Below, one piece after another: positions 47,949-62,278 of a DNA stretch of 64,000 nt. The position numbers were made by a program, and so were the translations under genes. A model generated the notes under the pieces. The model ran no database searches, was not told the DNA's origin, and saw only the letters and a program-made list of their open reading frames with translations. Each line of letters starts with the position of its first letter. Position 1 is the stretch's first letter. Source of the DNA: Microbacterium sp. MYb54 (GTDB taxonomy: Bacteria > Actinomycetota > Actinomycetes > Actinomycetales > Microbacteriaceae); the NCBI RefSeq assembly GCF_002979515.1, contig NZ_PCPA01000002.1, positions 1 through 64,000 on the forward strand. Reading direction: 5' to 3'.

Positions 47949-47979
47949 GGCGTTCGCCTGCTCCTCGGATGCGGGTACG

Positions 47980-48053
47980 GGGCTGTAGTTCAATGGCAGA
48001 ACTTCTGCTTCCCAAGCAGATAGCGCGGGTTCGATTCCCGTCAGCCCCTCCAC
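47980..48053 (+). tRNA. tRNA-Gly (CCC), CCA encoded
   Basis: Acceptor arms GGGGCTG / CAGCCCC pair perfectly (7 bp). D arm GTTC/GAAC, anticodon stem TCTGC/GCAGA with loop TTCCCAA (anticodon CCC) and T arm CGGG-TTCGATT-CCCG follow in order. CCA follows the discriminator T at 48051-48053. It reads GGG codons. It marks the left border of the atypical 48.1-62.3 kb region; no repeat of its 3' end was seen by eye on the far side. Confidence 0.97.
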
Positions 48054-48101: not shown

Positions 48102-49355
48102 TCAAGCCTTCGACGTCGCATCGTATCGACACCGAAAGTCGCTGACGAACATGGCGAGGGCTGCGGCGACCAGGAGCGAACCGACGATCCAGAGCATCAC
48201 CCGATCGTCGACGACAACTCCGTCATGGCTGCACACTCTAAGCGTCTGCATCACCCGCACCGAGTCGTCCGCGTGGCTTTCGAGTGTCGCATCCGTGCAG
48301 GCGTCAAGCCCCAGCGAGGGCGCCGGTCCGAGCATGTCGCGCATGATGCTCCGTGGGCCGAGGTCGAATCGGGTCAGTCCGAACAGCACAGCGAACAGAA
48401 GTACTGGGGCGACGATCCGACGAAGGACGAGGTTGCGGGCGTCTCGGCACAGCGCGGCAGCGGCGACGATGATCCCGAATCCGTAGCCCGCGATTGCGCC
48501 CGCGGCCGGGACATCGATGAGCAGTTGCGGCGAGAGCACCGCCTCGGCACCGCTCGGTGTCGAGTACGTGCCGGGCATGATTCGCATGACGACCGGGAGC
48601 AGCGCACCGGCGATGAAGCCCGCCGCCGTGCCGTATCCCGTCCATACCGCAACGACTCCGAATACACGCTTCATGTCAAGGTCGATGAGCAGCACCTTCG
48701 CGTACACCGCAAGCGCCGCGATGACCATGACGATGATCATCGCGACGGTCATCCAGGATGCGGTGGCCAACGCGTTGTACCCGACCACGATGCCCATCAC
48801 TCGCCGCTCGAGTGCAGTGCCCTTGTTCATCACGGCGGTGAAGGCCACCGCCATGAGGACGGGAATGAGGAGGAGGCTCAAGAGATAGCCTCGCATCACG
48901 GCTCCGGGAGCCATCAGGCGCTCCAGCGCCAGGAACCCGAGTTGAATCTCCCTCGGCCCGCGGGGCGCGATCGTTTCGTACCCCCGACCTACAGCCAGGA
49001 GACCCCGTCGGAGTTCCTCGGCGATCCGATCCATCACAAACCGTCCGAACGACGGCGCTTCAGACGCGGAAAAAGCCCGCAGAGCTCTGGCCGCCGCCCC
49101 TGCCACCCCTGCTGCCCCGAGACAGCACCACAGAAGCCAGAACCGAAGCCCGGCGATGACGGCGTCGACAGGTTGCGCGCCCAACGCCGCGGAGATCATG
49201 AGCATTGCGCCGGCAAACCACCCTGCGCACTCCGCGCTCACTCGAACGACGGCGAGCCAATGAGTCTTCTCGGATCTGTTGCTTCGCGCCCATTTGGTCA
49301 GCCGCCAGCATCCGATGAGGAACAGGATGATTCCGGCAACGACAAATATGATCAC
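48102..49355 (-). CDS. Polytopic membrane protein of unknown function
   Basis: 417 residues with about ten hydrophobic helices (first IIFVVAGIILFLIGCWRLT; last VMLWIVGSLLVAAALAMFVSDF). A cytoplasmic loop near 95-145 (MDRIAEELRRGLLAVGRGYE) and an extracytoplasmic segment with two Cys (LGLDACTDATLE and LRVCSHDG) near 355-390 could form a disulfide. No recognised domain. GTG start with GGAGG close upstream. It lies between the tRNA and the GMC oxidoreductase, same strand as the cyclitol cluster, with 43 bases to its neighbour. Confidence 0.7.
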   Translation of the reverse strand: MIIFVVAGIILFLIGCWRLTKWARSNRSEKTHWLAVVRVSAECAGWFAGAMLMISAALGAQPVDAVIAGLRFWLLWCCLGAAGVAGAAARALRAFSASEAPSFGRFVMDRIAEELRRGLLAVGRGYETIAPRGPREIQLGFLALERLMAPGAVMRGYLLSLLLIPVLMAVAFTAVMNKGTALERRVMGIVVGYNALATASWMTVAMIIVMVIAALAVYAKVLLIDLDMKRVFGVVAVWTGYGTAAGFIAGALLPVVMRIMPGTYSTPSGAEAVLSPQLLIDVPAAGAIAGYGFGIIVAAAALCRDARNLVLRRIVAPVLLFAVLFGLTRFDLGPRSIMRDMLGPAPSLGLDACTDATLESHADDSVRVMQTLRVCSHDGVVVDDRVMLWIVGSLLVAAALAMFVSDFRCRYDATSKA

Positions 49356-49398
49356 GCCTCCACAGATGGACTCGCACGCCCCGCAGTCGCCAGGGGGC

Positions 49399-50892
49399 TC
49401 AGCTGGATGTGATCAGATCTGCAATCCTGGCAGCAACGGCGATGGTGGTAAGGTTCGTGTTCGCCCGCGGTATCACCGGGATGAGCGAGGCGTCTCCGAC
49501 GTACACATTAGTGAGCCCGTGAACCTTGCCGTCGATTCCGACGACGGACATGGGGTCATTCTCAGATCCCATGCTGCAGGTCCCGACGGGGTGCCAGTAT
49601 CCGGCCTGCGTCTGCCCGACCGCATCCCGCTGCGCCGATGTCCAAGGATTCAGCGTCGCCAGCTTCCGCACGTGCGGCGCGGAGACGAGATCGTGGACGA
49701 CGTCGACACCGTCGAGAGCAACGCGACGGTCATAGCCGTCGGGATCACTGAAGTATCGAGGATCGACGATCGGAGTGTCGGACGGATCGAGCGATCGCGC
49801 TCTGACCACGCCCCTCGAGCGGGGCGTCAACATGAAGACGTGAATCGAGACTTCCAGCGGACCGACGAATTGCCCGAGCTCGTCCTCGGCTGGCCCAGCG
49901 GTCGGCACGATGTGCAAGTCCCAGTAGTCGTCGTCTGCCAAGCTCGATCGGACCTTCAGAAGACTCTGCGGTACGTACACTTCGTGGTCGGGCAGCACGT
50001 GATCGGGAGTTGGCTCGAGCGGGACCTGGACCTTCGGATGGTCGACGAGATTCTCACCAACGCCAGGAAGTGAGAGGACGGTGTTCGCGCCGAGTTGCTT
50101 CAGCACATTCTCAGGCCCGATTCCGCTGCGCATGAGCAGCGGGGGATTGCCATAGGCGCCGGCGGCGAGTACGACGGTCCCGGCCGCGATTCGTTTGATC
50201 TGCTCGTCCTGAATGATCTCCACGCCGACCGCCCGGTCGCCTTCGATGACGACCCGGACGACCAGGGTGTCCGCGACGACGCGCAGGTTCGGGCGGACGC
50301 GGGCGGGATCGAGGTATGCGAATGCTGCGTTCCAACGGGTGTGCCCGATCGCGTTCAAGGGAACCCAGCCCGCGCCTTCGACAGCATCCTCGGCGTTGAC
50401 GTCGTCGAGTGGCGAGAATCCGACGTGCTCGGCACCGGCGACGATTGCCCGGTGCCATTCGCTCCGATCGGCATCAGGCACCCCGCGGACTCGCATGTCA
50501 CTCATCGCACGTTCGAAGTATGGCGCGAGCGCGGAGTAGTCCCATGCACCGTCAGAGTAAGGGCGCCACGCGTCGAAGTCGGGCCTGGCACCGATCAGCG
50601 CCCAGCACGCGTTGCTCACCGATGACCCCCCGATCACACGACCGCGCGAGTAGTGCGGCGGAAATCCCGGGTCCCAGTCATGACTGCGCGCCGGTGAACG
50701 GCAGTCGAGAAGATCAGCTGGCCACCCCGCCGGATCATACGGGCCGTAGTCAGGACCGGCTTCGAGCAGCAGCACGCTGCGGCTGGGGTCTTGGCTGAGA
50801 CGGGACGCAAGCACGCAACCGGCCGCGCCTCCCCCGACGACTACGACGTCGGCCTGGAGCTCTGGCATCGTTTCTCCATTCTTGTCACTCAT
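49399..50892 (-). CDS. GMC-family FAD oxidoreductase (choline dehydrogenase-like)
   Basis: About 497 residues. The N-terminal FAD motif is ADVVVVGGGAAGCVLASRLS, with LLLEAGPDYGP and SRGRVIGGSSVSNACW (GMC signature 1) and later VVLAAGAYGNPPLLMRSGIG (signature 2). The C-terminal HPVGTCSMG carries the active-site His, followed by NTNLTTIAVAARIADLI. GMC enzymes oxidise alcohols of sugars, cyclitols and choline. ATG 50892 overlaps the MFS stop (ATGA); ATG 50868 after GGAG is the alternative. The coupling ties it to transporter and operator A of the cyclitol regulon, so it may oxidise a ring hydroxyl. Confidence 0.88.
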   Translation of the reverse strand: MSDKNGETMPELQADVVVVGGGAAGCVLASRLSQDPSRSVLLLEAGPDYGPYDPAGWPADLLDCRSPARSHDWDPGFPPHYSRGRVIGGSSVSNACWALIGARPDFDAWRPYSDGAWDYSALAPYFERAMSDMRVRGVPDADRSEWHRAIVAGAEHVGFSPLDDVNAEDAVEGAGWVPLNAIGHTRWNAAFAYLDPARVRPNLRVVADTLVVRVVIEGDRAVGVEIIQDEQIKRIAAGTVVLAAGAYGNPPLLMRSGIGPENVLKQLGANTVLSLPGVGENLVDHPKVQVPLEPTPDHVLPDHEVYVPQSLLKVRSSLADDDYWDLHIVPTAGPAEDELGQFVGPLEVSIHVFMLTPRSRGVVRARSLDPSDTPIVDPRYFSDPDGYDRRVALDGVDVVHDLVSAPHVRKLATLNPWTSAQRDAVGQTQAGYWHPVGTCSMGSENDPMSVVGIDGKVHGLTNVYVGDASLIPVIPRANTNLTTIAVAARIADLITSS

Positions 50893-52121
50893 GCGACACC
50901 GCTCTGTTCTTCTCGGGCCTGCGCCTCTCGTCGGCGAGCCCGCAGTCCACCCCAGAGCAGGAGGACACCGGCAACTATCAGGACCGGCTCGATCGCGAAT
51001 GCAACGAACAGACCGAACTGGTCGGCGAGACCGCCGAGCACGAAGGGCGAGGCTGCGGCAACGAGCCCGACGACCAACTGCGAACGGGCGTTGGCCTGAT
51101 CTTCTTGTCCTGGCGCCGCATCCAGCGCGAGCGCGAGCGCGAGCGGGTAGAGGTTGGCCACCCCTATCCCGCACACGAACAGTCCGACGATGGCAACGAG
51201 GGGTTCGTCGGTCATCCAGAACAGAACAAAGCTGGCGGCCGTGACGAGGAGCGATCCGTACAGCAGCGGGACCGTGTTGCCGACGCGCCGCGTCATGACG
51301 GCACCAGCCATACGACCGATGAGAATGCCAAGGAAGTTGGCACCGAGAGCGGCGCTCGCGGCAGCCGCCGACATGCCGGTCGCCATGAGCACCTGCGGGC
51401 CGAAGTACACCAAGCAGAACTCGATCGCCGAACTAAACGCCATGAGCACTGCGAACATCCAGCATGCGGCGGGGAGCCGCCGAGAACGCGTGCCGGGCAT
51501 CCTCTGCGGGCGCCTCCGGTAGTTGAGCTTTCGGTACCGCAGGAACAGCAGCGCCAGGACCAACACGGGGAATGCGAACGTCGCACGCCAGCCCAGCGCC
51601 GTGATCGCGAGGGCCCCGAGCACTAGCGGAGCGAAGACGGCAGACGCGCCTGCGCCGATGTTGGCCTCTGTCAGTGCCTGATCGCGACGCGGCCCATGCT
51701 GGTCGGACAAAACTGCCTGAATGACTGCGAGGAGCATCGTGCCCGCAAGGCCGAACAGCACCGTGCCAACGAGGGTGGCCGGCACCCCTCGGGTGAGCGT
51801 GAATATCGCTGCACCTAACGTCGCTCCTGCCGCCGAGGTCCACAGCAGCGCACCACGGGTCAAGAGCCGAGCAGCCCACGTGAACGTGGCTCCGGCGAGT
51901 GCGGCGCCGAGCGACCAGAACACAGAGTAGAGGCCGAGCAGAGTATAGGAGAACCCGAGTTCCTCCCGCAGTAGCGTGACCGCCGGTCCGAACGCATAGA
52001 GCCAGAATGTGTAGCACCCCAGGGCCGCATACGACAGGATGGTGGTTCCGTCTCGGACGAAGGCGCCGGGCGGCGCGACCGACGACGTCGCCGGCGGTGC
52101 CGACGGATGTTCTGGCTTCAT
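50889..52121 (-). CDS. MFS transporter of the cyclitol cluster (leftward)
   Basis: 410 residues, about twelve helices (TTILSYAALGCYTFWLYAFGPAVTLL start; AIEFCLVYFGPQVLMATGMS; VAIVGLFVCGIGVANLYPLALALALD). The last pattern is seen in sugar/drug MFS exporters. ATG 52121 follows AGGAG. An operator (52133-52148) overlaps its probable start site behind TACTGT. Divergent from a second MFS gene; the pair could serve import and export, or export of two products. Confidence 0.88.
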   Translation of the reverse strand: MKPEHPSAPPATSSVAPPGAFVRDGTTILSYAALGCYTFWLYAFGPAVTLLREELGFSYTLLGLYSVFWSLGAALAGATFTWAARLLTRGALLWTSAAGATLGAAIFTLTRGVPATLVGTVLFGLAGTMLLAVIQAVLSDQHGPRRDQALTEANIGAGASAVFAPLVLGALAITALGWRATFAFPVLVLALLFLRYRKLNYRRRPQRMPGTRSRRLPAACWMFAVLMAFSSAIEFCLVYFGPQVLMATGMSAAAASAALGANFLGILIGRMAGAVMTRRVGNTVPLLYGSLLVTAASFVLFWMTDEPLVAIVGLFVCGIGVANLYPLALALALDAAPGQEDQANARSQLVVGLVAAASPFVLGGLADQFGLFVAFAIEPVLIVAGVLLLWGGLRARRREAQAREEQSGVA

Positions 52122-52132
52122 CGATTCGCTCC

Positions 52133-52148
52133 TGTGTGTCGATACACA
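52133..52148. promoter_or_regulatory. Cluster operator A (LacI type)
   Basis: TGTGTGTCGATACACA, a CG-centred dyad pairing at six of seven positions per arm. It overlaps the predicted start region of the leftward MFS-GMC operon (-10 TACTGT on the minus strand at 52157-52152). Confidence 0.7.
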
Positions 52149-52220
52149 ACCACAGTATGTCCGACCTCGACCACGCGCGCCACTCATCGCGAACAGTCAC
52201 GAGCGCGCGTCTCGGAAATG

Positions 52221-52236
52221 CGTGTATCGTTACACA
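52221..52236. promoter_or_regulatory. Cluster operator B (LacI type)
   Basis: CGTGTATCGTTACACA shares the GTGTATCG/TACAC core with operators A and C. It ends one base before the ATG of the rightward MFS gene and contains its likely -10 box TATCGT (52225-52230), so bound repressor would block initiation directly. Confidence 0.7.
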
Positions 52237-52237
52237 A

Positions 52238-53446
52238 ATGAATCGGATCGATGCGAGGTCGTGGTCGAGTCTGGTGCTGTTGGGCTGCGCGGCGTTCGCC
52301 TACAACACATCGGAATCGTTCCCGGTAGGTCTTCTGCCAGAGATGTCGAGGGATCTAGGGGTCACGGAACCGCAGATCGGGTCACTGCTGACCTTGTATG
52401 CCGTGGTGGTCGCGGTGACGGTACTGCCGCTAGTCATCGCTGCATCTGGGATCGCTCGTCGCCGACTGATTCTGGTCACCATCGGCGTCCTGGTCGCGTC
52501 GAACCTCGCGATGGCGCTGGCTCCGACGTACGAGCTGGTGTTGGTGTCACGTCTTGTCTCAGCCACGACGCACGGAATCTTCTGGTCGATTGTCGCGCCT
52601 ACAGCTGCGATGCTCGTCGCCCGAGGACGCGAAGGCTTCGCAACGTCCGTGGCCTTCATGGGCAGCTCGCTCGCGATGGTGGCCGGAACCCCGCTCATGG
52701 CGGCGCTGGGCACGATGTGGGGCTGGCGCACTGCGGTCACGGTGCTGGCAGGAGTGGCGGCGCTTGCGTTCGTGGGTCTCGCGTTGGTGATGCCCAAGCT
52801 CGAGGTCGTTCGCGACGACCAGGCCCGCGGCCTTGCCGGATGGTTGCCCCTGCTGGTGTCGACAGTGAGCAACCGCGCACTACTGCGGCTGTGCGCGTTG
52901 ACGGTGCTGTTGGTGGTCACCTACTTCGCGGTTTACACCTATATCTCCCTCATCCTGGACCGCTCGGCCGATGTGTCGGGCCCAGGGCTCGCCGGGGTCC
53001 TGCTGGCGTACGGCATCGCCGGGCTGCTCGGAGTATGGATGATCGGCAAGTTCCTCGACGCCTCACCCCGCCGGTCTGCGCTCGTGACGATGTGGGTCCT
53101 CACCGTGGCGCTCGCCGGTATCGGTCTCTTCTCCTCCTGGGCCCCCGCTGGAGTGGTGGCCTCTGTCGTTTTGCTGGGAGCGGCCTTTGCAGCGACGCCG
53201 GTGTTCCTGCAAGCGAGCGTGTTGCGGGTCGCCCCGGAAACCAGCGATGTCGCGTCTTCGTTGTACGTGGTGGCGTTCCAGATCGGAATCGCCGGCGGAT
53301 CGCTCCTCGGAGGACTCGCCGTCGACGCCAGCCTGTTGGAAGCCGTTCCATGGATTGCTGCGGGAGCGGTGGCCGTCGCCGTGATCGTGCTCACGCTTCG
53401 GACCCGCACGTCGGCTCGAACCATGGAGGATGCCACAGCCGGGTGA
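52238..53446 (+). CDS. MFS transporter of the cyclitol cluster (rightward, DHA1-like)
   Basis: 402 residues, twelve helices. LLGCAAFAYNTSESFPVGLLPEM and VSRLVSATTHGIFWSIVAP match AraJ/SotB-type sugar or drug efflux carriers. It ends in a basic cytoplasmic tail. ATG 52238 has no Shine-Dalgarno and sits seven bases after TATCGT, so translation is probably leaderless. Operator B overlaps its promoter. Converges with the LacI gene, three bases apart. Export of the cluster's product is the simplest role. Confidence 0.88.
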   Translation: MNRIDARSWSSLVLLGCAAFAYNTSESFPVGLLPEMSRDLGVTEPQIGSLLTLYAVVVAVTVLPLVIAASGIARRRLILVTIGVLVASNLAMALAPTYELVLVSRLVSATTHGIFWSIVAPTAAMLVARGREGFATSVAFMGSSLAMVAGTPLMAALGTMWGWRTAVTVLAGVAALAFVGLALVMPKLEVVRDDQARGLAGWLPLLVSTVSNRALLRLCALTVLLVVTYFAVYTYISLILDRSADVSGPGLAGVLLAYGIAGLLGVWMIGKFLDASPRRSALVTMWVLTVALAGIGLFSSWAPAGVVASVVLLGAAFAATPVFLQASVLRVAPETSDVASSLYVVAFQIGIAGGSLLGGLAVDASLLEAVPWIAAGAVAVAVIVLTLRTRTSARTMEDATAG

Positions 53447-53449
53447 AAC

Positions 53450-54514
53450 TTACTGCGACAGTATGTTCTCGCGCGTCGATGTCCGCGGGACGATCTCCCA
53501 CGTCGGCGCGCTTACTCCAGCGGGGAGTCCGGCAGCGACAGCACCGCAAGCACGTCCCTGCTCGTACATCGACTGCCGAACGGTGGATACGCCCGCCGCC
53601 TCCGCCAGCGGACCGTCATCCCACCCTGTCACAGCAACCTGGGTCGGGACGTCGAGCCCCCCCTCGCGCAGCGCATCCAGGGCGCCGAGTGCGAGCTGAT
53701 CGCTAGCGCAAAGAACGAGATCCATGGGAATTCCGTCTGCGATCGCGGTTGCCAACGCCCTCCGCGCTTCCGTACGGTCATTCCTCGATAACGCCAGAAC
53801 GTAGGTCTGACTCCACTTGAGGGCAGCGTCCTGGATCGCATCACGGAAGCCCTCGAGGCGATCGTACGTCACCGGCAATCGTGCAGCAGCCGGGTCGATT
53901 CCGTACCCGGCGCGGGCGGTACGGTCAGAATCCAGCGAAAAGCTCAGTACCAGTGGGTGGCGCACGTCATCGACCAGCCCGAGCCGAGCGATTGCGGCTG
54001 CCGCATCGCGGTCGGGGATACCCACTCGCACAAATCCTTCGTGAGCGGGGCCGCCCTGGATCGCGCAGGGCCGATGCGTACCGACTGCGGCCGCCAGACT
54101 CGGGTCGTCCGCACGTGTCGTCCAGAACACGTACCCGTCGACCGGAGCCGCGACAACTCGCTGCGCGTCTTCTGCGTCGCCGATCGTGGGGATGATAGTC
54201 AACCCCAACCCCTCCTCCGCGCACACGGAAGCGACACCCGCGAGGAAATCTGTTGCCTGCGGATCGGTGAACGCGTAGGTCAGGTGCTCGCTGAACACCA
54301 CACCAAGCGCCCCAGCGCGCCCCCTCCGGAGTGCAGTCGCCCATGGGTTCTTCCCTTGATACCCGAGCTCAGCGGCGGCAGCGAGCACACGCTCGCGCGT
54401 GGCATCCGAGACGCGACCGGGATCGTTGAACGCATATGACACGGTCATCACCGATACCCCTGCGCGGTGAGCGATATCCCGGAGCGTGGGGCGGTGACCA
54501 GCCGAAGTCGCCAT
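53450..54514 (-). CDS. LacI-family regulator of the cyclitol cluster
   Basis: 354 residues. The N-terminal helix-turn-helix is TLRDIAHRAGVSVMTVSYAFN with the hinge LGYQGKNPWATALRRGRAG. The sensor domain has LGVVFSEHLTYAF, VDGYVFWTT and LCASDQLALGALDALREGG (LacI type). It lies 20 bases after the last SDR of the operon. ATG 54514 is six bases after TAGACT without a Shine-Dalgarno, so it likely also has its own leaderless promoter. The CG-centred operators at 52133, 52221 and 62232 are its presumed targets; the inducer may be a cyclitol or disaccharide. Confidence 0.92.
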   Translation of the reverse strand: MATSAGHRPTLRDIAHRAGVSVMTVSYAFNDPGRVSDATRERVLAAAAELGYQGKNPWATALRRGRAGALGVVFSEHLTYAFTDPQATDFLAGVASVCAEEGLGLTIIPTIGDAEDAQRVVAAPVDGYVFWTTRADDPSLAAAVGTHRPCAIQGGPAHEGFVRVGIPDRDAAAAIARLGLVDDVRHPLVLSFSLDSDRTARAGYGIDPAAARLPVTYDRLEGFRDAIQDAALKWSQTYVLALSRNDRTEARRALATAIADGIPMDLVLCASDQLALGALDALREGGLDVPTQVAVTGWDDGPLAEAAGVSTVRQSMYEQGRACGAVAAGLPAGVSAPTWEIVPRTSTRENILSQ

Positions 54515-54534
54515 CACATCAGTCTAACGAACAG

Positions 54535-55323
54535 TCATCGAGCAGCGCGGATCAGCGATGCACCTCCATCAACATCGAGGAACTGGCCGGTTAGATGACG
54601 TGCCGAAGAGGACGCCAGGAACACAATTGCCTCAGCCACGTCGGCAGGAAGCTGCTCCCGAGTCGTGACCCCTTCATCATCGAATTGAACAAGCGGAACC
54701 CGGTCGGCAACGACCGAATCGAACTCAGCTCGATCGACGGCTGCCCATTGCCGCGACCAGACGAAACCAGGTCGGACTCCGTTGACACGGATCCCGCGGG
54801 GCGCCAGCAGCACCGCCAGAGTCACAGTCCAATGCTCGAGCGCCGATTTTGCGGCTCCATAGGCAGGCGAAACGATCCAAGGCATCGTGGCAGCAATCGA
54901 ACTGACATGGGTGATCGACGCGCCGTCAACGAGGCGGTCTTGTACGAGCCGAATGATGCGGTACGCAAGCCCCGCGTTCAGCTCGGTGATGTCGTCCCAT
55001 ACCGCGGGCGGTGGCCACGCGGTGTCGAGGACCGGTTGGAGCGGCGGGTTCTCCTCCCCGCCGAGCACGCTCACATAGCTGGCGATCTTCGTCGGCAGCT
55101 CGTCCTTCAATGATCGCAGGCGTTCGTCATCGCGCAGATCAGCGACGATTTGCGTGACGTTCGGATCGTCGGCACCGGTAGGTTCCGAGCGATCGACACT
55201 CCATACGTGATCGACGAGACCACGATCCAACAAGCCCGCGGCGGCGGCAGCACCGATCTGTCCACGCCCCCCGATCACGACGCCCGCGCGCCCGAGTTCA
55301 TTCTTCATCGCGTCCACCCTCAT
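54535..55323 (-). CDS. Short-chain dehydrogenase/reductase (second SDR of operon)
   Basis: 262 residues, Rossmann fold. The cofactor loop VVIGGRGQIGAAAAAGL is a variant of TGxxxGxG. Catalytic Ser near 141, Tyr155 and Lys159 lie in THVSSIAATMPWIVSPAYGAAK. The C-terminal half ends in TGQFLDVDGGASL, usual for classical SDRs. ATG 55323 overlaps the glycosyltransferase stop by four bases. It probably reduces or oxidises a ring ketone of the cyclitol, by analogy with oxidoreductases in acarbose-type pathways. Confidence 0.88.
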   Translation of the reverse strand: MRVDAMKNELGRAGVVIGGRGQIGAAAAAGLLDRGLVDHVWSVDRSEPTGADDPNVTQIVADLRDDERLRSLKDELPTKIASYVSVLGGEENPPLQPVLDTAWPPPAVWDDITELNAGLAYRIIRLVQDRLVDGASITHVSSIAATMPWIVSPAYGAAKSALEHWTVTLAVLLAPRGIRVNGVRPGFVWSRQWAAVDRAEFDSVVADRVPLVQFDDEGVTTREQLPADVAEAIVFLASSSARHLTGQFLDVDGGASLIRAAR

Positions 55324-56597
55324 TTGCGAAGCATGTCGTAGTTGCGCACGAGCCGATCGATCAGGTACCCCCTGCGCACTGAGGACTCTGCTGCAGCACC
55401 GAGTTCAGCACGCAACCCCTCGTCGGCGACCAGCTCGTTCACGGCAACGATGAACGCCTCGTCGTCGCCAGGCTCCACGAGCAGCCCATTGACGCGGTCC
55501 TTGATCTGTCGAGGTATCCCACCGGTGCGGGTCGCCACAACGGGCTTCCCCTTGAACATCGCCTCAGTGATTGTGAGGCCGAACCCCTCCTCGACGCTGC
55601 GCTGGACGACCACGTCCGCGCGGCGTTGCAGCGCGTTGACGTGGAGCGCGTTCAAGTCACGGTCTTGCGCCGATAGTGCGATGAGATGGACTCGACTGCG
55701 GATCGGTGCGGGGAGTTCGTGAAGCTGCTGCAGAGCTTCATCGAGCTGATCCACGCCCTCCGGGTCATCGAGGACCTCGGCTGGGTCGGGCCCCGCGACA
55801 ACAACATGGACTCGGGGGTCGAGGTGCTCGACGACACGCAGAACATCGCGAATCCCCTTGAGCGGATCCCACCGCGAGACTTGCAGCACAACCGGCGCAT
55901 GATCGGGAACTGGGGCGTCCTGCCAGACCCTGCCGGCAGTGCCGACTGCACCGGTCATGGAGTTCGTGCCGATCGTCTCCAAATGTGCCGCGACATCGGC
56001 AGCGTCAATCCGAACGTTTTTCGGAGCATCTGGATCGATCGCGGGGTGGACGACCAGCACCCTGGATATCTGCGCTCCCTGGAGGAACCCGGGTTCGGTG
56101 ACCAGGACCGCGTCAACGGCACGGAGGTCGTGGGCAAAGAAGTTCCAGAGCGCCTCTCTGACCTCAACCGAGCTACGGAGCGTACCGATGTGGCAGTGCC
56201 AGTACACGGGGTTACCGCGCTGCGCAGCCCATGACGCAAGCCCAAGGGTCTGCGGGTCGTGCAGCACCAGAATGTCGTCCTGACGAATCTCGGACTCAAT
56301 CAGCACCGAGACGTCCTCAAGAACGTCGCGGTATTCTTTTGCGCCATCTTCGAGGAGACTCGGATCCTCGCGGCCGTGAAAGAGGTGGTGCAGGCCCTTC
56401 GTGACGGCGAAGAACTCGTCGGAAGCGTCGATCACCATCCACCCGGTGGGATGGCCACGGAACTCGTCGTGCCGCGTGACGTTGTCCAGAATCTCAGCGA
56501 CGCCGCCGCCGCGGTCACTGGTGTTGATGTGGATCAACCGCCTCCCGACACCTGCAACTGGCTCGCGCATCCACCTGACCCCCGTGGGAGACGTCAT
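55320..56597 (-). CDS. GT4 glycosyltransferase, trehalose synthase (TreT)-like
   Basis: 425 residues, GT-B fold. The N-terminal RLIHINTSDRGGGVAEIL (21-37) and VLHDPQTLGL, VYWHCHIGTL in the middle are the signature of retaining trehalose glycosyltransferring synthase/phosphorylase (TreT/TreP). In the C-terminal domain SRWDPLKGI supplies the diphosphate-binding Arg/Lys, and EEGFGLTITEAM has the EX7E motif (Glu337/Glu345). TreT joins a nucleotide sugar to glucose as an alpha,alpha-1,1 linkage. In this operon the acceptor may be a C7-cyclitol, giving a trehalose-like pseudodisaccharide (inference). ATGA overlaps on both sides. Confidence 0.88.
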   Translation of the reverse strand: MTSPTGVRWMREPVAGVGRRLIHINTSDRGGGVAEILDNVTRHDEFRGHPTGWMVIDASDEFFAVTKGLHHLFHGREDPSLLEDGAKEYRDVLEDVSVLIESEIRQDDILVLHDPQTLGLASWAAQRGNPVYWHCHIGTLRSSVEVREALWNFFAHDLRAVDAVLVTEPGFLQGAQISRVLVVHPAIDPDAPKNVRIDAADVAAHLETIGTNSMTGAVGTAGRVWQDAPVPDHAPVVLQVSRWDPLKGIRDVLRVVEHLDPRVHVVVAGPDPAEVLDDPEGVDQLDEALQQLHELPAPIRSRVHLIALSAQDRDLNALHVNALQRRADVVVQRSVEEGFGLTITEAMFKGKPVVATRTGGIPRQIKDRVNGLLVEPGDDEAFIVAVNELVADEGLRAELGAAAESSVRRGYLIDRLVRNYDMLRK

Positions 56598-57247
56598 CGG
56601 ATGCGCGCTTCCGGGGAGAATGCCGCAATCCCGCTGACGCCCACGAGATCGAAGAAGTCTCCGATGCGGGTGAGCCCCTCGGTGGCGTCGCTCCGGTAGG
56701 CCCCAACCACGATCACCCGCGCACCTGAACGCAGCCCGGCGGTGACCCCAGGACCTGCGTCTTCGAAGACGACGCATTCGGCGGGAGGACGCCGAAGCGC
56801 CTGCGCCGCGCGGAGATACCCTTCGGGCGATGGCTTCCCGTGCACGACGTCATCGGAGGCGATCAAGACCTCAGGGATCGGCAACCCTGCGGTCGTCATC
56901 CGAACCGTTGCCACCGTCCTCGTGGCGGAGGTGACGACTGCCCATCGGTCCGCGGCCAGACCATTCAAGTACTCTCGTGCGCCGGGGAGCGCTCGGATGC
57001 CCTCTGTCTCGGTGGCTTCGGCCGCGGCGACAGCTTCAACCTCTGCATCGACATCAAGACCTGACGGGAGGAAGTGAGTAACAGTCGCTCGCGTTGGACG
57101 TCCGTGAGCGAAGGCAAGCACAGCATCTACATCGCAACTGTGACGGTACGCGAATTGGCCCCAGATCTTCTCGACAAGAGGAGTGGAGTCCAGAAGGGTC
57201 CCATCCATGTCGAAAAGCAAAGCGGGCTTGAGTTGGTCGGCGTTCAT
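56594..57247 (-). CDS. HAD-superfamily sugar phosphatase
   Basis: 217 residues. Motif I LLFDMDGTLLDST has the nucleophile Asp13 and Asp15, motif II is VVTSATRT, motif III is VVHGKPSPEGY with Lys, and motif IV is VFEDAGPGVTAG. The helical cap between I and II marks a subclass IA phosphatase like 2-deoxyglucose-6-phosphatase, glycerol phosphatase or beta-phosphoglucomutase; no mutase-specific feature is seen. It presumably removes the phosphate added by the ROK kinase from the cyclitol or the glycosylated product. Overlaps neighbours by four bases. Confidence 0.9.
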   Translation of the reverse strand: MNADQLKPALLFDMDGTLLDSTPLVEKIWGQFAYRHSCDVDAVLAFAHGRPTRATVTHFLPSGLDVDAEVEAVAAAEATETEGIRALPGAREYLNGLAADRWAVVTSATRTVATVRMTTAGLPIPEVLIASDDVVHGKPSPEGYLRAAQALRRPPAECVVFEDAGPGVTAGLRSGARVIVVGAYRSDATEGLTRIGDFFDLVGVSGIAAFSPEARIR

Positions 57248-58047
57248 TCGGCGCTCCCGTTATCGTCGATCAGGTTGGTGAGTGCGGCGAGGTCCGCGCG
57301 GATTTGCGCTTCGCCGTGGTCGCGGTGGTCGGTCTCGACGACGAAGCCGTCCACGATCCGTGTGCGAAGCAGCGCTTCGACCGCAGGCCCGAGCGGTACC
57401 CGACCGCACCCAAGCGCGATGTCGCCCGCCGGACCGCTTCGGTGATCCTTGATGTGTGCCTCGGAATGGAGGACCGGGGTCGCTTCCGCGAGATAGGCCT
57501 GCCAATCGATGCGGTGCTCGTGGAGATTGCCGATATCGAACAACACGCGCACCCCCGCGGCGTGAACGGCCTCACGAAGGGTGATGAGTTTCGCCGGTTC
57601 CAGAACGTTCTCGTGAACGACGACGAGCTCCGCGGTCGCGGCGAGTTGTGCAATGCGAACGAGAAATGCAGCAGTGGCCGTCGCGTCATGCGACGTGCGT
57701 ATCGCGCTGCGCCGGAAGGCAGGTATCAATACCGCAGGGGCGTCCAAGGCGACTGCGGCGTCGATCGCCTTCCGAGTGAGCGCACCGATTGCCATCTGGT
57801 CCTGACGATCGGCGGACGTGACACCGAGGTCGTTGAGCGCATTGACTGCCACTGCGGTGATGGCGATACCCTCGCTGTCGGCCTGACTTCTCAACTGCCG
57901 GGTCGTTGAAGGCGTGAGTTCGTATGCCCGCCTGTTCCCGCCATAGTCGATCTGCAGTCGACGCGCACCCACTCGCGCGGCGAGCGACGGGCTGTCTTGC
58001 AGGCGGCCTGGCAACCGCCACGAAACGAGACCGACTGCGGCGTTCAC
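57244..58047 (-). CDS. Sugar phosphate isomerase/epimerase (AP endonuclease 2-like TIM barrel)
   Basis: 267 residues. The TIM barrel carries metal ligands in VVVHENVLEPAKL (Glu), VLFDIGNLHEHRID (Asp/His), SEAHIKDH (His) and GFVVETDH (Glu). Close families include xylose-isomerase-like, tagatose epimerase and inosose dehydratase (IolE-like) enzymes. GTG 58047 overlaps the SDR stop (GTGA), which decides the start. In the operon it could epimerise the cyclitol (a role played by AcbO in acarbose synthesis) or dehydrate it; motifs alone do not separate these. Confidence 0.85.
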   Translation of the reverse strand: MNAAVGLVSWRLPGRLQDSPSLAARVGARRLQIDYGGNRRAYELTPSTTRQLRSQADSEGIAITAVAVNALNDLGVTSADRQDQMAIGALTRKAIDAAVALDAPAVLIPAFRRSAIRTSHDATATAAFLVRIAQLAATAELVVVHENVLEPAKLITLREAVHAAGVRVLFDIGNLHEHRIDWQAYLAEATPVLHSEAHIKDHRSGPAGDIALGCGRVPLGPAVEALLRTRIVDGFVVETDHRDHGEAQIRADLAALTNLIDDNGSAE

Positions 58048-58793
58048 AGCGCACGGCTCTGCGACGGCGGCGACTGCACCGATGCGAGTGTATGCCAGGT
58101 GCCGTCCGGTCGGACGACCAGCGCTTGACCATCGTCGGAGCTGCCCCTGGTCCGGCCAAGATGTTCGGAGACCGCCTCGAAGGCAGCGGGAGAGGCGTAG
58201 CCCGAGTAGTCGAAGTCCGTGGCGCGACGCATTCGAATGCCCGGAGAGTCGACCATTCCCTGCGGGAGGACCTCGACGATGCGTAAATGGGCGGCATCGT
58301 ATTCCTGTCGGATCGACGCAAGCATGGCTGAGGCGGCCGCCTTCACCGCAGCGTAACCGCTGCGCCCGGGTCCGGCGTTGTAGACGACCTCCGAGGACAC
58401 CCCGATGATGAGCCCAGGCGGTGCGGCGATGAGGCTCGGGACGCACGTTTGCAGCGCGAGCCACAGCGAGTGCATCATCACGTTGACCTGACTGACCCAC
58501 TCCGCGTTGGGAGTGTCGACGAGCTTCCTCCGGCTACGCCCATACACCGCCGGGGAGAAGCACAGCACGGAGATCCCATCGTCAGCAACGGCCGCGAGCG
58601 CCTGCTGTGTCCGTCGGGAATCGTTCAAGTCGACCTCGGTCCACCCAGCGTGAGTGACTTGTGGTCGCGTCCGGCTGAGCACGTGCACGTCATAGCCGGC
58701 ACTTGTAAGCCCCGTGGCAATCCCGCTGCCGACGCCCGTGGAACCACCGATGACGAGCGCTCGCTGCGCTCCGCCTGTCGAATGTACGTTCAT
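58044..58793 (-). CDS. Short-chain dehydrogenase/reductase (first SDR of operon)
   Basis: 249 residues. ALVIGGSTGVGSGIATGL is the cofactor loop; Ser near 133, Tyr147 and Lys151 in GVSSEVVYNAGPGRSGYAAVK form the catalytic triad. HVLSRTRPQ after the second strand, with Arg residues, favours NADP(H). It follows the medium-chain dehydrogenase by an ATGA overlap, giving the pathway two or three oxidoreductases. Probable role: keto-cyclitol reduction or re-oxidation during stereo-inversion. Confidence 0.88.
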   Translation of the reverse strand: MNVHSTGGAQRALVIGGSTGVGSGIATGLTSAGYDVHVLSRTRPQVTHAGWTEVDLNDSRRTQQALAAVADDGISVLCFSPAVYGRSRRKLVDTPNAEWVSQVNVMMHSLWLALQTCVPSLIAAPPGLIIGVSSEVVYNAGPGRSGYAAVKAAASAMLASIRQEYDAAHLRIVEVLPQGMVDSPGIRMRRATDFDYSGYASPAAFEAVSEHLGRTRGSSDDGQALVVRPDGTWHTLASVQSPPSQSRAL

Positions 58794-59866
58794 GCGGTGG
58801 TTCCGTCTCTGAAGTCGATGACGAGCTTGAGGATGCGGCGGCCGGCAAGTACACGCGCACCGCCGGCAGCCATGCCGTTGAGCGCACCGACCGCCTCCGT
58901 CGGAGTTGCCACGTGTGTGATGAGGTCCTTTACTTCATCGCCACGGGCGAGCAAAAGTTCCGCGGCATCACGGAAGTGCTCGTGGGAAACCCCCCGGTGT
59001 CCAGTGATCTGTACCCGCCGGGGTGCGTCTGGGACGCCCACCTCAAGGTTGAACATGTTCGGCTTGCTCGGACGCCCGCACACATTCTGTGCACGCACCC
59101 GAGCCGCGTACTGCAGGATCGGATCCGGACCAGGATCGATGCCGCCGATGATATCGATCACCGACCCGTCCCCCGCATTTTCCAACGCGATACTCACACA
59201 CGTGGCAGTGGAATCCCGCGGGGTGGCGATCACTACTCCGGTTCGCCCTCGCATCCCCCGGAGCACGTGGGCACGCGCGCGCTCGTCCTCGATGTCGAGC
59301 CGCCCGGCGAGTACGACGGCACTCGAGTCGAGGTGAAGTGAATCCAACCAGGCGACGAGACGACCGACCGCACCGTCGCCGAGCACTACCACCCGCTCGA
59401 CCTGCGCGTCCCTCAGGATCGACCAGCTGTAGATCGCGCACGCGAGAGGCTCCACGAGCACCGCAAGGACGGGGTCGAGGTTTTCAGGGAGTGGCATCAC
59501 TTGTCCCAGCTCGACCGCGTGCTCGGTGACGAGCAGATGGGAGGACCACACCCCGTCGACGGAGTGCCCCAGCAGGAACCCCGAGTCTGTCGACGAGGTC
59601 GGATTGACTGCGACTCGGTCACCTTCCGCATAGCGCCCGGCCCATCGCTGCCCCACCCCGAGAACGGTGCAGCAGGCCTCGTGTCCCAGAACAGTCGCTG
59701 CTTCCGACCGCATCCCCTTCACGATCTGGATGTCGGTCCCGCATACCCCTGCGGTCTCGATGCCCAGAAGCAGCTCGCCGGGTGCAAGCGCAGGCACAGG
59801 TCGGACGACCTCGATGAACTGGTTCCCCGGGGTTCTTTCGATCGACAGCGCTGCGGCGGGCGACAT
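58790..59866 (-). CDS. Medium-chain Zn-type alcohol dehydrogenase lacking the structural zinc site
   Basis: 358 residues. The catalytic zinc ligands are VCGTD (Cys42), GHE (His62, Glu63) and VEP (Glu139). The nucleotide loop is VVLGDGAVGRLVAWL. The usual four-Cys structural zinc lobe is replaced by VAVNPTSSTDSGFLLGHS, with no Cys. ATG 59866 shares a base with the ROK stop (TGATG). Cyclitol dehydrogenases of acarbose-like clusters (AcbL) belong to this superfamily, so oxidation or reduction of a phosphorylated C7-cyclitol is proposed. Not glutathione-type. Confidence 0.88.
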   Translation of the reverse strand: MSPAAALSIERTPGNQFIEVVRPVPALAPGELLLGIETAGVCGTDIQIVKGMRSEAATVLGHEACCTVLGVGQRWAGRYAEGDRVAVNPTSSTDSGFLLGHSVDGVWSSHLLVTEHAVELGQVMPLPENLDPVLAVLVEPLACAIYSWSILRDAQVERVVVLGDGAVGRLVAWLDSLHLDSSAVVLAGRLDIEDERARAHVLRGMRGRTGVVIATPRDSTATCVSIALENAGDGSVIDIIGGIDPGPDPILQYAARVRAQNVCGRPSKPNMFNLEVGVPDAPRRVQITGHRGVSHEHFRDAAELLLARGDEVKDLITHVATPTEAVGALNGMAAGGARVLAGRRILKLVIDFRDGTTA

Positions 59867-60945
59867 CACTGGATCCACGTCGCACGCCGAGCGTCAGCGC
59901 CGGCGAGGATCGCCGCCCCAACCAGAGGCGAGGTCTCTTGGGGAGACCGTGCAAGGACGATCACCGACTCGAGCCAAGCAGGGTGACTGCTCGACGTGTG
60001 ATAGACGCCGCGGTGTCGCATTCGCCGCAGCACGGCGCGGCGATAGTGCACCCCGATGGATTCGATAACCCCACCCGCCATCACGATGCGCTCGATATCG
60101 GGCTGGGTTGTCAGCAGGTATGTGAAGACGTCCGCGATCGGATTGACCGCTTCGCGGAGCACGCTATGAGCAAAGGGATCATCGGCGTCCAGTGCTGCCG
60201 CGAAGGTGCGCTCGAACTCCTCCGGAGACAGAACGACTGCACTCACGGCCAGAACATCTGGATCGGCGCGCATGGCGATCGCACCGGCGACCGCGCGTAT
60301 CCCCGGGCCACTCGCGAACGCCGCGACGTGGTCCGACACCCCGCACGCGCACTCCAGGTGCAGATCGTTCGTCACGGCAGGAAGATGCCCGATCTCCCCC
60401 TGCAGACCAGCTGGGTCAGTCGGCATGATCCGCGAGCTCGGGTCATCGTAGCGAGCAGCAATTCCGGAGCTGACAGTCACCACCGCGATCTTGGAGGCGT
60501 CGAGCTCGGAATGCACCGCGCGATAGGCCGCGAGCATTGCGGTGACGTCGTTCTTCACGACCCATTGAACGTTCGGGACCCGCGCGTTGAGCCGTGCACT
60601 GATGGGAACGTCCGTCGCGGAGTCCCCCCACAGCGGTGCGGATCCGTAGACCACACCACGATCATGGTCGAGTGCGGCGCCCAAGCTGATGGCAACCTTC
60701 GATCCCTTCGTAGCCGGCGCCATGCTGACGATCAAGTCGACCAGTTGGTCAATCAACTGATCCGCGGGTGTCTCAGGGTGGTTGGTCCGACTCGGCGTCC
60801 GAACCATCCTGATCGGCTCTTCGGCGGACAACGGCCAGCAAGAAGCTCGAGTCCACGTGCCGCCTATGTCAAGAACGAAACTCGCACCCTCCGAGCCTGC
60901 CTTCGTCCCGGAGGCCGGATTGATGGGCGCGAGCGGGTCAGCCAC
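59866..60945 (-). CDS. ROK-family kinase, candidate C7-cyclitol kinase
   Basis: 359 residues. ATP site SFVLDIGGTWTRAS (DIGGT 26-30). Catalytic Asp133 is in VVKNDVTAM, GEIGH is at 183-187 and VMAGGVIESIG lies late in the protein. The ROK zinc motif CxCGxxGCxE is degenerate: only CACGVSDH (199-206) remains, so zinc binding or sugar specificity may differ from glucokinases. GTG 60945 follows AAGGA and overlaps the cyclase stop by eight bases. In acarbose synthesis an AcbM kinase phosphorylates 2-epi-5-epi-valiolone at C7; the position directly after the cyclase suggests the same job. Confidence 0.85.
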   Translation of the reverse strand: MADPLAPINPASGTKAGSEGASFVLDIGGTWTRASCWPLSAEEPIRMVRTPSRTNHPETPADQLIDQLVDLIVSMAPATKGSKVAISLGAALDHDRGVVYGSAPLWGDSATDVPISARLNARVPNVQWVVKNDVTAMLAAYRAVHSELDASKIAVVTVSSGIAARYDDPSSRIMPTDPAGLQGEIGHLPAVTNDLHLECACGVSDHVAAFASGPGIRAVAGAIAMRADPDVLAVSAVVLSPEEFERTFAAALDADDPFAHSVLREAVNPIADVFTYLLTTQPDIERIVMAGGVIESIGVHYRRAVLRRMRHRGVYHTSSSHPAWLESVIVLARSPQETSPLVGAAILAGADARRATWIQ

Positions 60946-62155
60946 GAGCCAGTCCTTGCTCCATCCCGAGCGACATTTCCAGCTCGGATCCTTCCAGCGC
61001 CTGACCCATTGCGCGGGTGCTCGCCACCGCAACAGCGACCTCTTCCGACGTCAGATCATTCACGAAAGTTGCGCGGCCGATCCCCGTCAATAGTGGAACT
61101 CGCTGCAGACCATCTCGGTGCTTGATGGTGTCGTCGAGTGCCTGCTCCAGCAGATTCGCCTCGAACATTCGATTGGTCAGCGGGAGCCCCAAGCGAAAGA
61201 GCAGATTGAAAGCCCGCCGCGCCTCGAACTCGGTGAGCAGGCCACGCCGCAGAGAGAGTTCTACGCACAGCGCCATGTCGACGGCGACCGCCTCGCCATG
61301 AAGAAGCGGCGGGTCTGCGATGAGCTCAAGAGACGGACTGAATGTGTGCCCGAAGTCCACGATGCGCTCAAGGTCCGTTTCGTGCAGGTTGGGCTCGAGC
61401 TCCGAGAGCATCCCCCCGATCGCACGAGCAAGAATTTCCTCGTGCGTATCGACCGCCGTCAGTGCGTAGCTCGCATTCCGGAGCGGGTCCGCTGCGGATT
61501 CCAGCAGGCTCAGGAGCTCAGCGTCCTTGACAAGCGCGATCTTGACAATCTCGGCGAGACCGTTGCGGATGTGGCGCGGGGGCAGAGATGCAAGAAATAG
61601 CGGGTCCACCAGTGTTGCAGTCGGGGCGAAATAGGTTCCGAGCCGGTTCTTGTGCTTCCCTCGATTCACTCCCGTTTTCACACCCACACCGGCATCGACC
61701 AGACCGATGAGAGTCGTTGGTACCCGCACGTACGGCACACCACGGCGGAACAGGTTGGCAGCGAGACCGACGACGTCCATGACCACTCCACCTCCGAAGA
61801 CGACGACGGTCTCAGAGCGGCGGAGCAGGCCGGCATCTGCCATCGCATCGGCAACTGTGACGACCGATGAGAGCTCCTTGGTGTGTTCCTCAGCTGGCAC
61901 CACGATTACGGATACCGGAATCCCATGGTGTGCAAAGTATGCACGGATCAAAGACCCGTAAAGCTCTTCGACTGTGTGGTCGACTACGGCGAGGACCCTG
62001 CCTCCGCACCGCACCGCGAGGGCCCTATTGTCTGGCTCGAGGACATTTTCGACCATCTCGACGTCGTACTCGATGCGATGGTCTGCGCTCACTCGCCAGC
62101 GTGCTCGACTCGGCGATGATTCACCATCGATTTCGGACTTGAAAATCTCGACCAT
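60938..62155 (-). CDS. Sugar phosphate cyclase, 2-epi-5-epi-valiolone synthase (EEVS) type
   Basis: 405 residues, longer than typical 3-dehydroquinate synthases (about 360) and typical of EEVS. NAD loop FGGGVVMDVVGLAANLF; VPTTLIGLVDAGVGVKTGVN with Lys160; HKNRLGTYFAP with Lys169. Metal ligands are Glu202 (GLAEIVKIALVKD), His270 (VDFGHTFSP) and His286 (LLHGEAV). The distal motif HRDGLQRVPLLTGIG is one I associate with AcbC/ValA-like cyclases and not with AroB. Reaction: sedoheptulose 7-phosphate to 2-epi-5-epi-valiolone. ATG 62155 follows GAGGGGG. Heads the eight-gene operon. EVS or desmethyl-4-deoxygadusol synthase are less likely alternatives. Confidence 0.92.
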   Translation of the reverse strand: MVEIFKSEIDGESSPSRARWRVSADHRIEYDVEMVENVLEPDNRALAVRCGGRVLAVVDHTVEELYGSLIRAYFAHHGIPVSVIVVPAEEHTKELSSVVTVADAMADAGLLRRSETVVVFGGGVVMDVVGLAANLFRRGVPYVRVPTTLIGLVDAGVGVKTGVNRGKHKNRLGTYFAPTATLVDPLFLASLPPRHIRNGLAEIVKIALVKDAELLSLLESAADPLRNASYALTAVDTHEEILARAIGGMLSELEPNLHETDLERIVDFGHTFSPSLELIADPPLLHGEAVAVDMALCVELSLRRGLLTEFEARRAFNLLFRLGLPLTNRMFEANLLEQALDDTIKHRDGLQRVPLLTGIGRATFVNDLTSEEVAVAVASTRAMGQALEGSELEMSLGMEQGLARG

Positions 62156-62231
62156 TGCGTCCCCCTCGTGCGATGAGGCGCATGCGAAGTCGGTCCACAG
62201 AATGGGCTCTGACCAGCACCGCGCCCATGCG

Positions 62232-62278
62232 TGTGTATCGTCACACGTGAGTGTAGGCGGCGGAGTGTTGCCGTGCAA
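62232..62278 (-). promoter_or_regulatory. Cyclase operon promoter with cluster operator C
   Basis: On the minus strand TTGCAC (62278-62273) and TACACT (62255-62250) with a 17-bp spacer; transcription should start near 62243. TGTGTATCGTCACACG (62232-62247) overlaps that start and shares the GTGTATCG core of operators A and B, so the same LacI protein should repress all three promoters. The leader to the cyclase ATG is about 88 nt. Nothing else is recognised in 62156-62404. Confidence 0.75.

Follow-up and report, generated by a model that had tools for sequence, protein, structure and literature searches.

What does the cluster of sugar-type genes toward the far end of the analysed stretch of the Microbacterium sp. 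MYb54 genome make, and which parts of it belong together? That stretch (64,000 nucleotides, positions 1 to 64,000 of contig NZ_PCPA01000002.1, assembly GCF_002979515.1; referred to below as the window) had been read, from its letters alone, as holding a possible C7-cyclitol biosynthetic cluster at 48102-62278, headed by a 2-epi-5-epi-valiolone synthase (EEVS), and the analysis presented here supports that interpretation. The unit proper consists of twelve genes at 49399-62155 together with their operators. On balance, the twelve genes probably constitute one conserved unit that would execute an acarbose-type route to valienol 7-phosphate and then, by way of a GT4 glycosyltransferase, produce a nitrogen-free alpha-glucoside.

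Eight minus-strand genes, cyc-rok-mdr-sdr1-tim-had-gt4-sdr2, run from 62155 to 54535, each overlapping the next (spacings of -8, -13, -4, -4, -4, -4 and -4 bases), which bears out the fully overlapping, cyclase-headed operon of the sequence-only reading. The lacI gene starts 20 bases past sdr2, mfs2 lies on the opposite strand from 52238, and mfs1 and gmc follow on the minus strand from 52121. Every gene that had been named is present, and Pfam matches back the class of each of the twelve:

60938..62155, minus strand: cyc, EEVS-type cyclase of 405 amino acids, ATG start at 62155 (PDB matches, tree, metal ligands, D/H pair)
59866..60945, minus strand: rok, ROK kinase, predicted AcbM-type cyclitol 7-kinase (PF00480; 39% to the acbM-position stretch of locus L167, described below)
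58790..59878, minus strand: mdr, medium-chain dehydrogenase-type protein, predicted AcbL-type dehydratase (PF08240; 37% to the acbL-position gene of L167)
58044..58793, minus strand: sdr1, AcbN-type short-chain reductase, predicted valienone 7-phosphate reductase (PF00106; 46% to the acbN-position gene of L167)
57244..58047, minus strand: tim, xylose-isomerase-like TIM barrel, predicted AcbO-type 2-epimerase (PF01261; 37% to the acbO-position gene of L167)
56594..57247, minus strand: had, HAD-IA sugar phosphatase, not of AcbJ type (PF00702/PF13419; NCBIfam PRK11587 at 176 bits, below cut-off)
55320..56597, minus strand: gt4, GT4 transferase of trehalose-synthase (TreT) type, predicted to transfer glucose to the cyclitol
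54535..55323, minus strand: sdr2, second short-chain dehydrogenase (SDR), partner of gt4, predicted to oxidise or reduce the cyclitol or the glucoside made from it (PF13561)
53450..54514, minus strand: lacI, LacI-family regulator, predicted repressor of the unit (PF00356; 78% in L094 and 58% in L015, two related loci)
52238..53446, plus strand: mfs2, MFS carrier related to sugar efflux proteins (PF07690; NCBIfam PRK03545 at 235 bits, cut-off of 401 not reached)
50889..52121, minus strand: mfs1, MFS carrier (PF07690; 79% in L094)
49399..50892, minus strand: gmc, GMC oxidoreductase (PF00732 and PF05199)

The cyclase belongs, by its sequence, to the EEVS group. Its PDB ranking is headed by ValA (4P53, 352 bits), followed by 5TPR (274 bits), which we take to be the Anabaena desmethyl-4-deoxygadusol synthase (DDGS; the PDB title reads 3-dehydroquinate synthase, DHQS), and then by other DHQS entries at no more than 144 bits. 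In a tree of 112 rows (built by a quick method with SH-aLRT support, 36 of its 108 inner branches being open) cyc groups with ValA, CetA and other EEVS-type proteins, and lies outside the DHQS branch (support 100) and the DDGS branch (support 100). The metal ligands E202, H270 and H286 are present, and the residue pair that separates EEVS from DDGS is D267/H346, as in ValA (the positions and letters of these two sites being those seen in ValA). Over the 112 rows the D/H pair is found in cyc and in 103 of the 112; four DDGS-type rows have A/T, four DHQS-type rows have N at the first site, and the one row left over is a paralogue from the window's own genome. This fingerprint covers two of 14 sites plus the three metal ligands, a combination of two such sites and three ligands having served to tell the cyclase groups apart (PMC4426668); a literature search on the fingerprint residues turned up nothing useful. 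Identity as DHQS or DDGS is rejected on PDB scores, tree placement and the D/H pair, so that the phylogeny proposed in the sequence-only reading, for which placement within DHQS was the adverse outcome, puts cyc with ValA and CetA instead. The start of the gene did have to be moved: the TTG at 62278 first chosen lies in the first half of a promoter-like TTGCAC-N17-TACACT pair, and is replaced by the ATG at 62155.

The paralogue (G000:C13:4248-5384; L096:4233-5471, minus strand) is a sugar-phosphate-cyclase-like gene with 35% identity to cyc, A at the first of the two sites that separate EEVS from DDGS, and a long branch beside DDGS. It is surrounded by genes for Condensation, PPCDC-like flavoprotein, AMP-binding, phosphopantetheinyl transferase and luciferase-like proteins, possibly an unrelated cyclitol-peptide cluster.

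Which pathway does the cyclase feed? In the acarbose route, AcbC is followed by AcbM (a ROK-like 7-kinase), AcbO (a 2-epimerase), AcbL, which dehydrates to valienone 7-phosphate, and AcbN, an SDR, which reduces the latter to valienol 7-phosphate, according to the accounts in PMC7081202, PMC9200736 and PMC7682106. The transcription order is given as M-L-N-O-C, within the cluster acbVUSRPIJQKMLNOC of Actinoplanes sp. SE50/110 (PMC7682106). EEVS-level matches at E 1e-70 occur in 18 of 354 Micromonosporaceae-type genomes. Locus L167, on a contig of 9,240,166 bases, presents in order a class-III aminotransferase, a 492-residue protein, a starch-synthase-like protein of 709 residues, a nucleotidyltransferase, a NUDIX protein, a second starch-synthase-like protein (734 residues), a Hydrolase_3 HAD, a GH77, a PfkB kinase, the M-L-N-O-C stretch and a nucleotide-sugar dehydratase; since this is the published acb order, L167 is taken to be Actinoplanes sp. 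SE50/110. When the window proteins are compared with 20 kb of L167 by tblastn, cyc matches at 50%, rok at 39%, mdr at 37%, sdr1 at 46% and tim at 37% identity. The matches to rok, mdr, sdr1, tim and cyc run consecutively, exactly as acbM-L-N-O-C, and the M-L-N-O order is that of the window; the other seven window proteins have no match in these 20 kb at E 1e-3. In tim, E146, D171, H198 and E238 are invariant in 20 of 20 sequences, the four residues that serve as ligands in metal-dependent ketose epimerases; the tim profile matches L-ribulose-5-phosphate and D-tagatose 3-epimerases in the PDB (one profile search gave 12 rows, none named AcbO). Judged by protein similarity and gene order, orthologues of all five genes of the acarbose-type valienol 7-phosphate route are thus present and clustered, and they point to valienol 7-phosphate as a likely intermediate. 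The acarbose precedent of the sequence-only reading is in this respect closer than was claimed, with five orthologous genes, four in the same order; it fails for the HAD protein (see below). The core pathway itself is already known. In the window, cyc would convert sedoheptulose 7-phosphate to 2-epi-5-epi-valiolone, rok would phosphorylate it at C-7, tim would epimerise C-2 with the help of a metal ion, mdr would remove water to form valienone 7-phosphate, and sdr1 would reduce this to valienol 7-phosphate.

The twelve genes are more than a chance grouping. L094, in a Cellulomonas-type genome and thus in a second family, has all twelve in identical order and orientation at 63-79% identity, and against it all twelve are under purifying selection (pN/pS 0.22-0.44). 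The search for the same eight-gene order suggested in the sequence-only reading finds it in L094 and also in L015, from Arthrobacter sp. ISL-48, which shares a divergent LacI, mfs2 and matching operators with the window, but at 39-58% identity, with no match to mfs1 or gmc, and with a tail of class-III aminotransferase, MDR (medium-chain dehydrogenase) and GT2 genes after the eight that the window unit does not have. The best 80 of 316 EEVS loci were surveyed for the other genes (presence by tblastn, at least 60 bits): rok, mdr and tim accompany the cyclase in 41, these with sdr1 in 34, and the four with had in 21; gt4 is present in 10, core, had and gt4 in six, and core, had, gt4 and sdr2 in four. 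The core thus occurs widely among actinomycetes and in some proteobacteria; the version with GT4 is rarer.

The unit is also held together by a 14-base palindrome, GTGTRNCGNYACAC, with three copies in the window (none in 100 shuffles) and no further copy in the 4,246,055 bases of the genome. The three lie before cyc, mfs2 and mfs1:

62233..62246, no strand assigned: operator-like palindrome GTGTRNCGNYACAC, just downstream of the operon's promoter-like TTGCAC-N17-TACACT (62278-62250)
52222..52235, no strand assigned: operator-like palindrome, separated by 2 bases from the mfs2 ATG, at equal ATG distance in L094 and L015
52134..52147, no strand assigned: operator-like palindrome in front of mfs1

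Placement directly after TTGCAC-N17-TACACT is as expected of a repressor site at a transcription start. Among 139 loci the palindrome is found in four, namely two copies of the window locus, L094 (three sites, before cyc, mfs1 and mfs2) and L015 (two sites, one before cyc and one 2 bases ahead of an ATG in the start region of the mfs2 frame, plus a third that deviates by a single mismatch). Bound at these three matching operators, LacI would keep the promoters shut, to be released by a sugar-like inducer. A local regulator distinguishes the unit from the Actinoplanes acb cluster, which is described as without regulator genes (PMC7682106); an initial idea that the acb cluster, too, has a LacI gene is rejected, AcbZ being an amylase in the same account.

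Beyond the shared core (ROK kinase and SDR included) the two clusters part company. In place of AcbU, AcbR, AcbS, AcbI and AcbV type genes the window has a TreT-like GT4 and SDR2, and its HAD is of another subfamily. The marks of an acarbose-like amino-pseudo-oligosaccharide (AcbU 1-kinase, AcbR nucleotidyltransferase, AcbS pseudoglycosyltransferase, aminotransferase) are all lacking from the twelve genes and from the five others called in the 20 kb of L094 (GtrA-like, GH3, cold-shock, RelA/SpoT and MFS). Gt4 has the TreT N-terminal domain, a GT-B fold nearest to TreT and the EX7E pair; it resembles TreT of Pyrococcus horikoshii and Thermoproteus uzoniensis in fold, EX7E pair and the GGGVAEIL and HDPQ motifs, but at 31-33% identity by structural alignment, and in the window it lies in a cyclitol operon beside SDR2. 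In a set of seven sdr2 sequences, with 54-71% identity to the window protein, S141/S142, Y155 and K159 are invariant, and in all five of the best 80 EEVS loci that have sdr2, gt4 is present as well. Because no 1-kinase, nucleotidyltransferase or aminotransferase is found among the twelve genes by Pfam, the donor would most simply be housekeeping NDP-glucose and the acceptor the glucose-like cyclitol; a retaining GT4 would then form an alpha-glucoside, with the glucosyl bond at either C-1 (as in trehalose) or C-4. Had would remove the 7-phosphate before or after glucosyl transfer (compare OtsB after OtsA), sdr2 and perhaps gmc would determine how far the product is oxidised and may leave a ketone in it, and mfs2 and mfs1 would export it. 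What this means operationally is that the acarbose cyclitol route plus a trehalose-synthase-like transferase, with no genes for nitrogen introduction or nucleotide activation, would give pseudodisaccharides without nitrogen by a compact route that can be tested; the operon is small enough for expression as a whole, and the operators offer a simple handle on the inducer.

Several points weigh against this glucoside reading. The first idea for had, that it is AcbJ, is rejected, for it has no match in L167 at E 1e-3, and the acbJ position there is held by a 283-residue Hydrolase_3-type HAD; by sequence, had is not an orthologue of AcbJ. The operator pattern was derived from the very sites found, so that independent weight attaches only to how rare it is and to its reappearance in relatives, and promoter scans (a consensus scan included) flagged no promoter, TTGCAC-N17-TACACT among them. 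In L015 the same operon is followed by an aminotransferase gene, and so can occur together with genes that introduce nitrogen. GT4 relatives are found apart from cyclitol genes: at E 1e-70, gt4 occurs in six of 250 Micromonosporaceae-type genomes, four of them with no core-gene match in the 14-20 kb read, and of these four transferases three lie inside the cluster-associated GT4 group and one outside; in a sample of the order, six of seven gt4 matches other than the window's own have no cluster gene within about 1.5 kb on each side, and all six fall outside that group. The GT4 family is thus not tied to cyclitols, the acceptor proposed here is a prediction, and a GT4 group exclusive to cyclitol clusters is a notion that these relatives weaken. 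(The first GT4 tree had 64 rows, P0121-P0140 and each fourth row thereafter of 120 listed; the second had 44, with L193-L197 added to P0121-P0140. With contig size as a proxy for shared context, 10 of 40 GT4 rows, P0121-P0160 of 120, lie on a contig of the same size as one of 80 cyclase rows, P0001-P0080 of 120.)

The L015 tail bears on the most serious alternative, itself rather unlikely, in which the operon makes a free C7-cyclitol, or an aminocyclitol of the valienamine or validamine type that an aminotransferase encoded outside the cluster completes, with GT4 acting late, on the amine or on another sugar. The tail's aminotransferase is of class III, as is AcbV, and the arrangement recalls validamycin, whose cluster (ValA, ValC, ValL, ValO, ValG) is among the closest known systems; the window genome has six class-III aminotransferase matches elsewhere. 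These, however, are only 27-35% identical to the L015 enzyme, and the absence of aminotransferase and nucleotidyltransferase genes claimed for the window unit holds there and in the genes called around L094, which has all twelve. The nitrogen-free product of the sequence-only reading therefore agrees with the gene content of the unit, and is best kept as a prediction in view of L015 and the six matches.

Somewhat less probable is that GT4 makes trehalose-like or ordinary alpha-glucosides and that the cyclitol, made independently within the same regulon, serves for instance to inhibit a trehalase or glucosidase and so to protect a disaccharide held in store. The TreT-like fold would suit this, as would the four core-less Micromonosporaceae-type relatives, three of them within the cluster-associated group; on the other side, gt4 overlaps both had and sdr2 by 4 bases within the operon, and it recurs in the 10 EEVS loci and beside a DHQS-like cyclase core. 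A catabolic unit for LacI-controlled uptake and breakdown of an environmental cyclitol or glucoside is very improbable: LacI, MFS, ROK, TIM isomerase and dehydrogenases are common in catabolic operons, and a GH3 glycosidase gene (L094:909-3296) comes next after gmc in L094, but EEVS forms its ring from a pentose-phosphate intermediate and to our knowledge has no catabolic role, five genes match the acarbose biosynthetic operon with M-L-N-O colinear, and no glycoside hydrolase is found in the window unit by Pfam.

Taken further, the glucoside reading leads to a more specific and tentative proposal, for which the odds are rather against: that the product is a nitrogen-free 'carba-trehalose', valienol alpha-linked to glucose by a TreT-derived GT4 and trimmed by SDR2, that GT4 and SDR2 form a portable cassette glucosylating the products of several different sugar-phosphate cyclases, and that this would be the first cluster for streptol-type (A-79197-2) alpha-glucosides. 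Streptol is equated with valienol (PMC10131216), and its nitrogen-free glucosides are of the product class predicted here (a likeness at the level of the product); a beta form is described from Candidatus Burkholderia kirkii and the alpha form, A-79197-2, from Dactylosporangium (PMC8599487, PMC10131216). A glucose-streptol product, and linkage of the symbiosis glucoside at the 4-position of streptol, are given in PMC10131216; PMC8599487 refers to A-79197-2, from a leaf Dactylosporangium, as an inhibitor of plant growth and reports that it inhibited root growth, which lends interest to the predicted class. The authors of one account write that every natural pseudo-oligosaccharide they know of has a pseudo-anomeric C-N bond (PMC9200736); oxygen-bridged analogues were described later from the validamycin producer (PMC12041759). 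A literature search, mostly without subscription journals, gave no paper on the twelve-gene unit among the matches listed, and nothing relevant among those for such a cluster in Microbacterium or Cellulomonas. The gt4-sdr2 pair is also found beside two other cyclitol cores. At L196:8533-15325, of Micromonospora type, a DHQS-like cyclase (N/I at the two sites) is accompanied by had, an RmlD-like epimerase, a BadF-type kinase, a TIM barrel, gt4 and sdr2, and is a candidate, on gene content, for a different cyclitol glucoside.

How did the unit come to be here? The cyclase has no match at E 1e-60 in 294 other genomes of the genus, and no EEVS-level match is found in 298 other genomes of the family sample (two matches near E 1e-41 group with AroB). 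G+C is 64.3% across 48102-62278 and 68.7% across 1-47900. The unit is flanked by tRNA-Gly on one side and an AMP-binding-enzyme gene on the other, and the flanks in L094 differ. In one of five relatives (L135), dcd, tRNA-Gly and the AMP-binding-enzyme gene lie in one stretch, the last two 4.4 kb apart with other sequence between them; the 19.5 kb read from each of the other four did not show the AMP-binding-enzyme gene, and there is no clean empty site. These flanks are compatible with an island acquired at a site that varies. The extent first claimed for the cluster stands for 49399-62155 plus operators and does not for 48102-49355, between tRNA-Gly and gmc, whose protein has no Pfam match and no significant match in L094 (best E 0.31). 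That product looks membrane-type by eye, and its gene adjoins the tRNA-Gly (47979-48052).

GMC-type genes also lie near EEVS at L046, L053, L079, L184 and L185. At L184:7036-10566 and L185:7140-11816 an EEVS-type cyclase stands beside an SDR and a GMC oxidoreductase with 33-35% identity to gmc, with an mfs1-like carrier (30-31%) nearby, hinting that GMC oxidation of cyclitols may recur.

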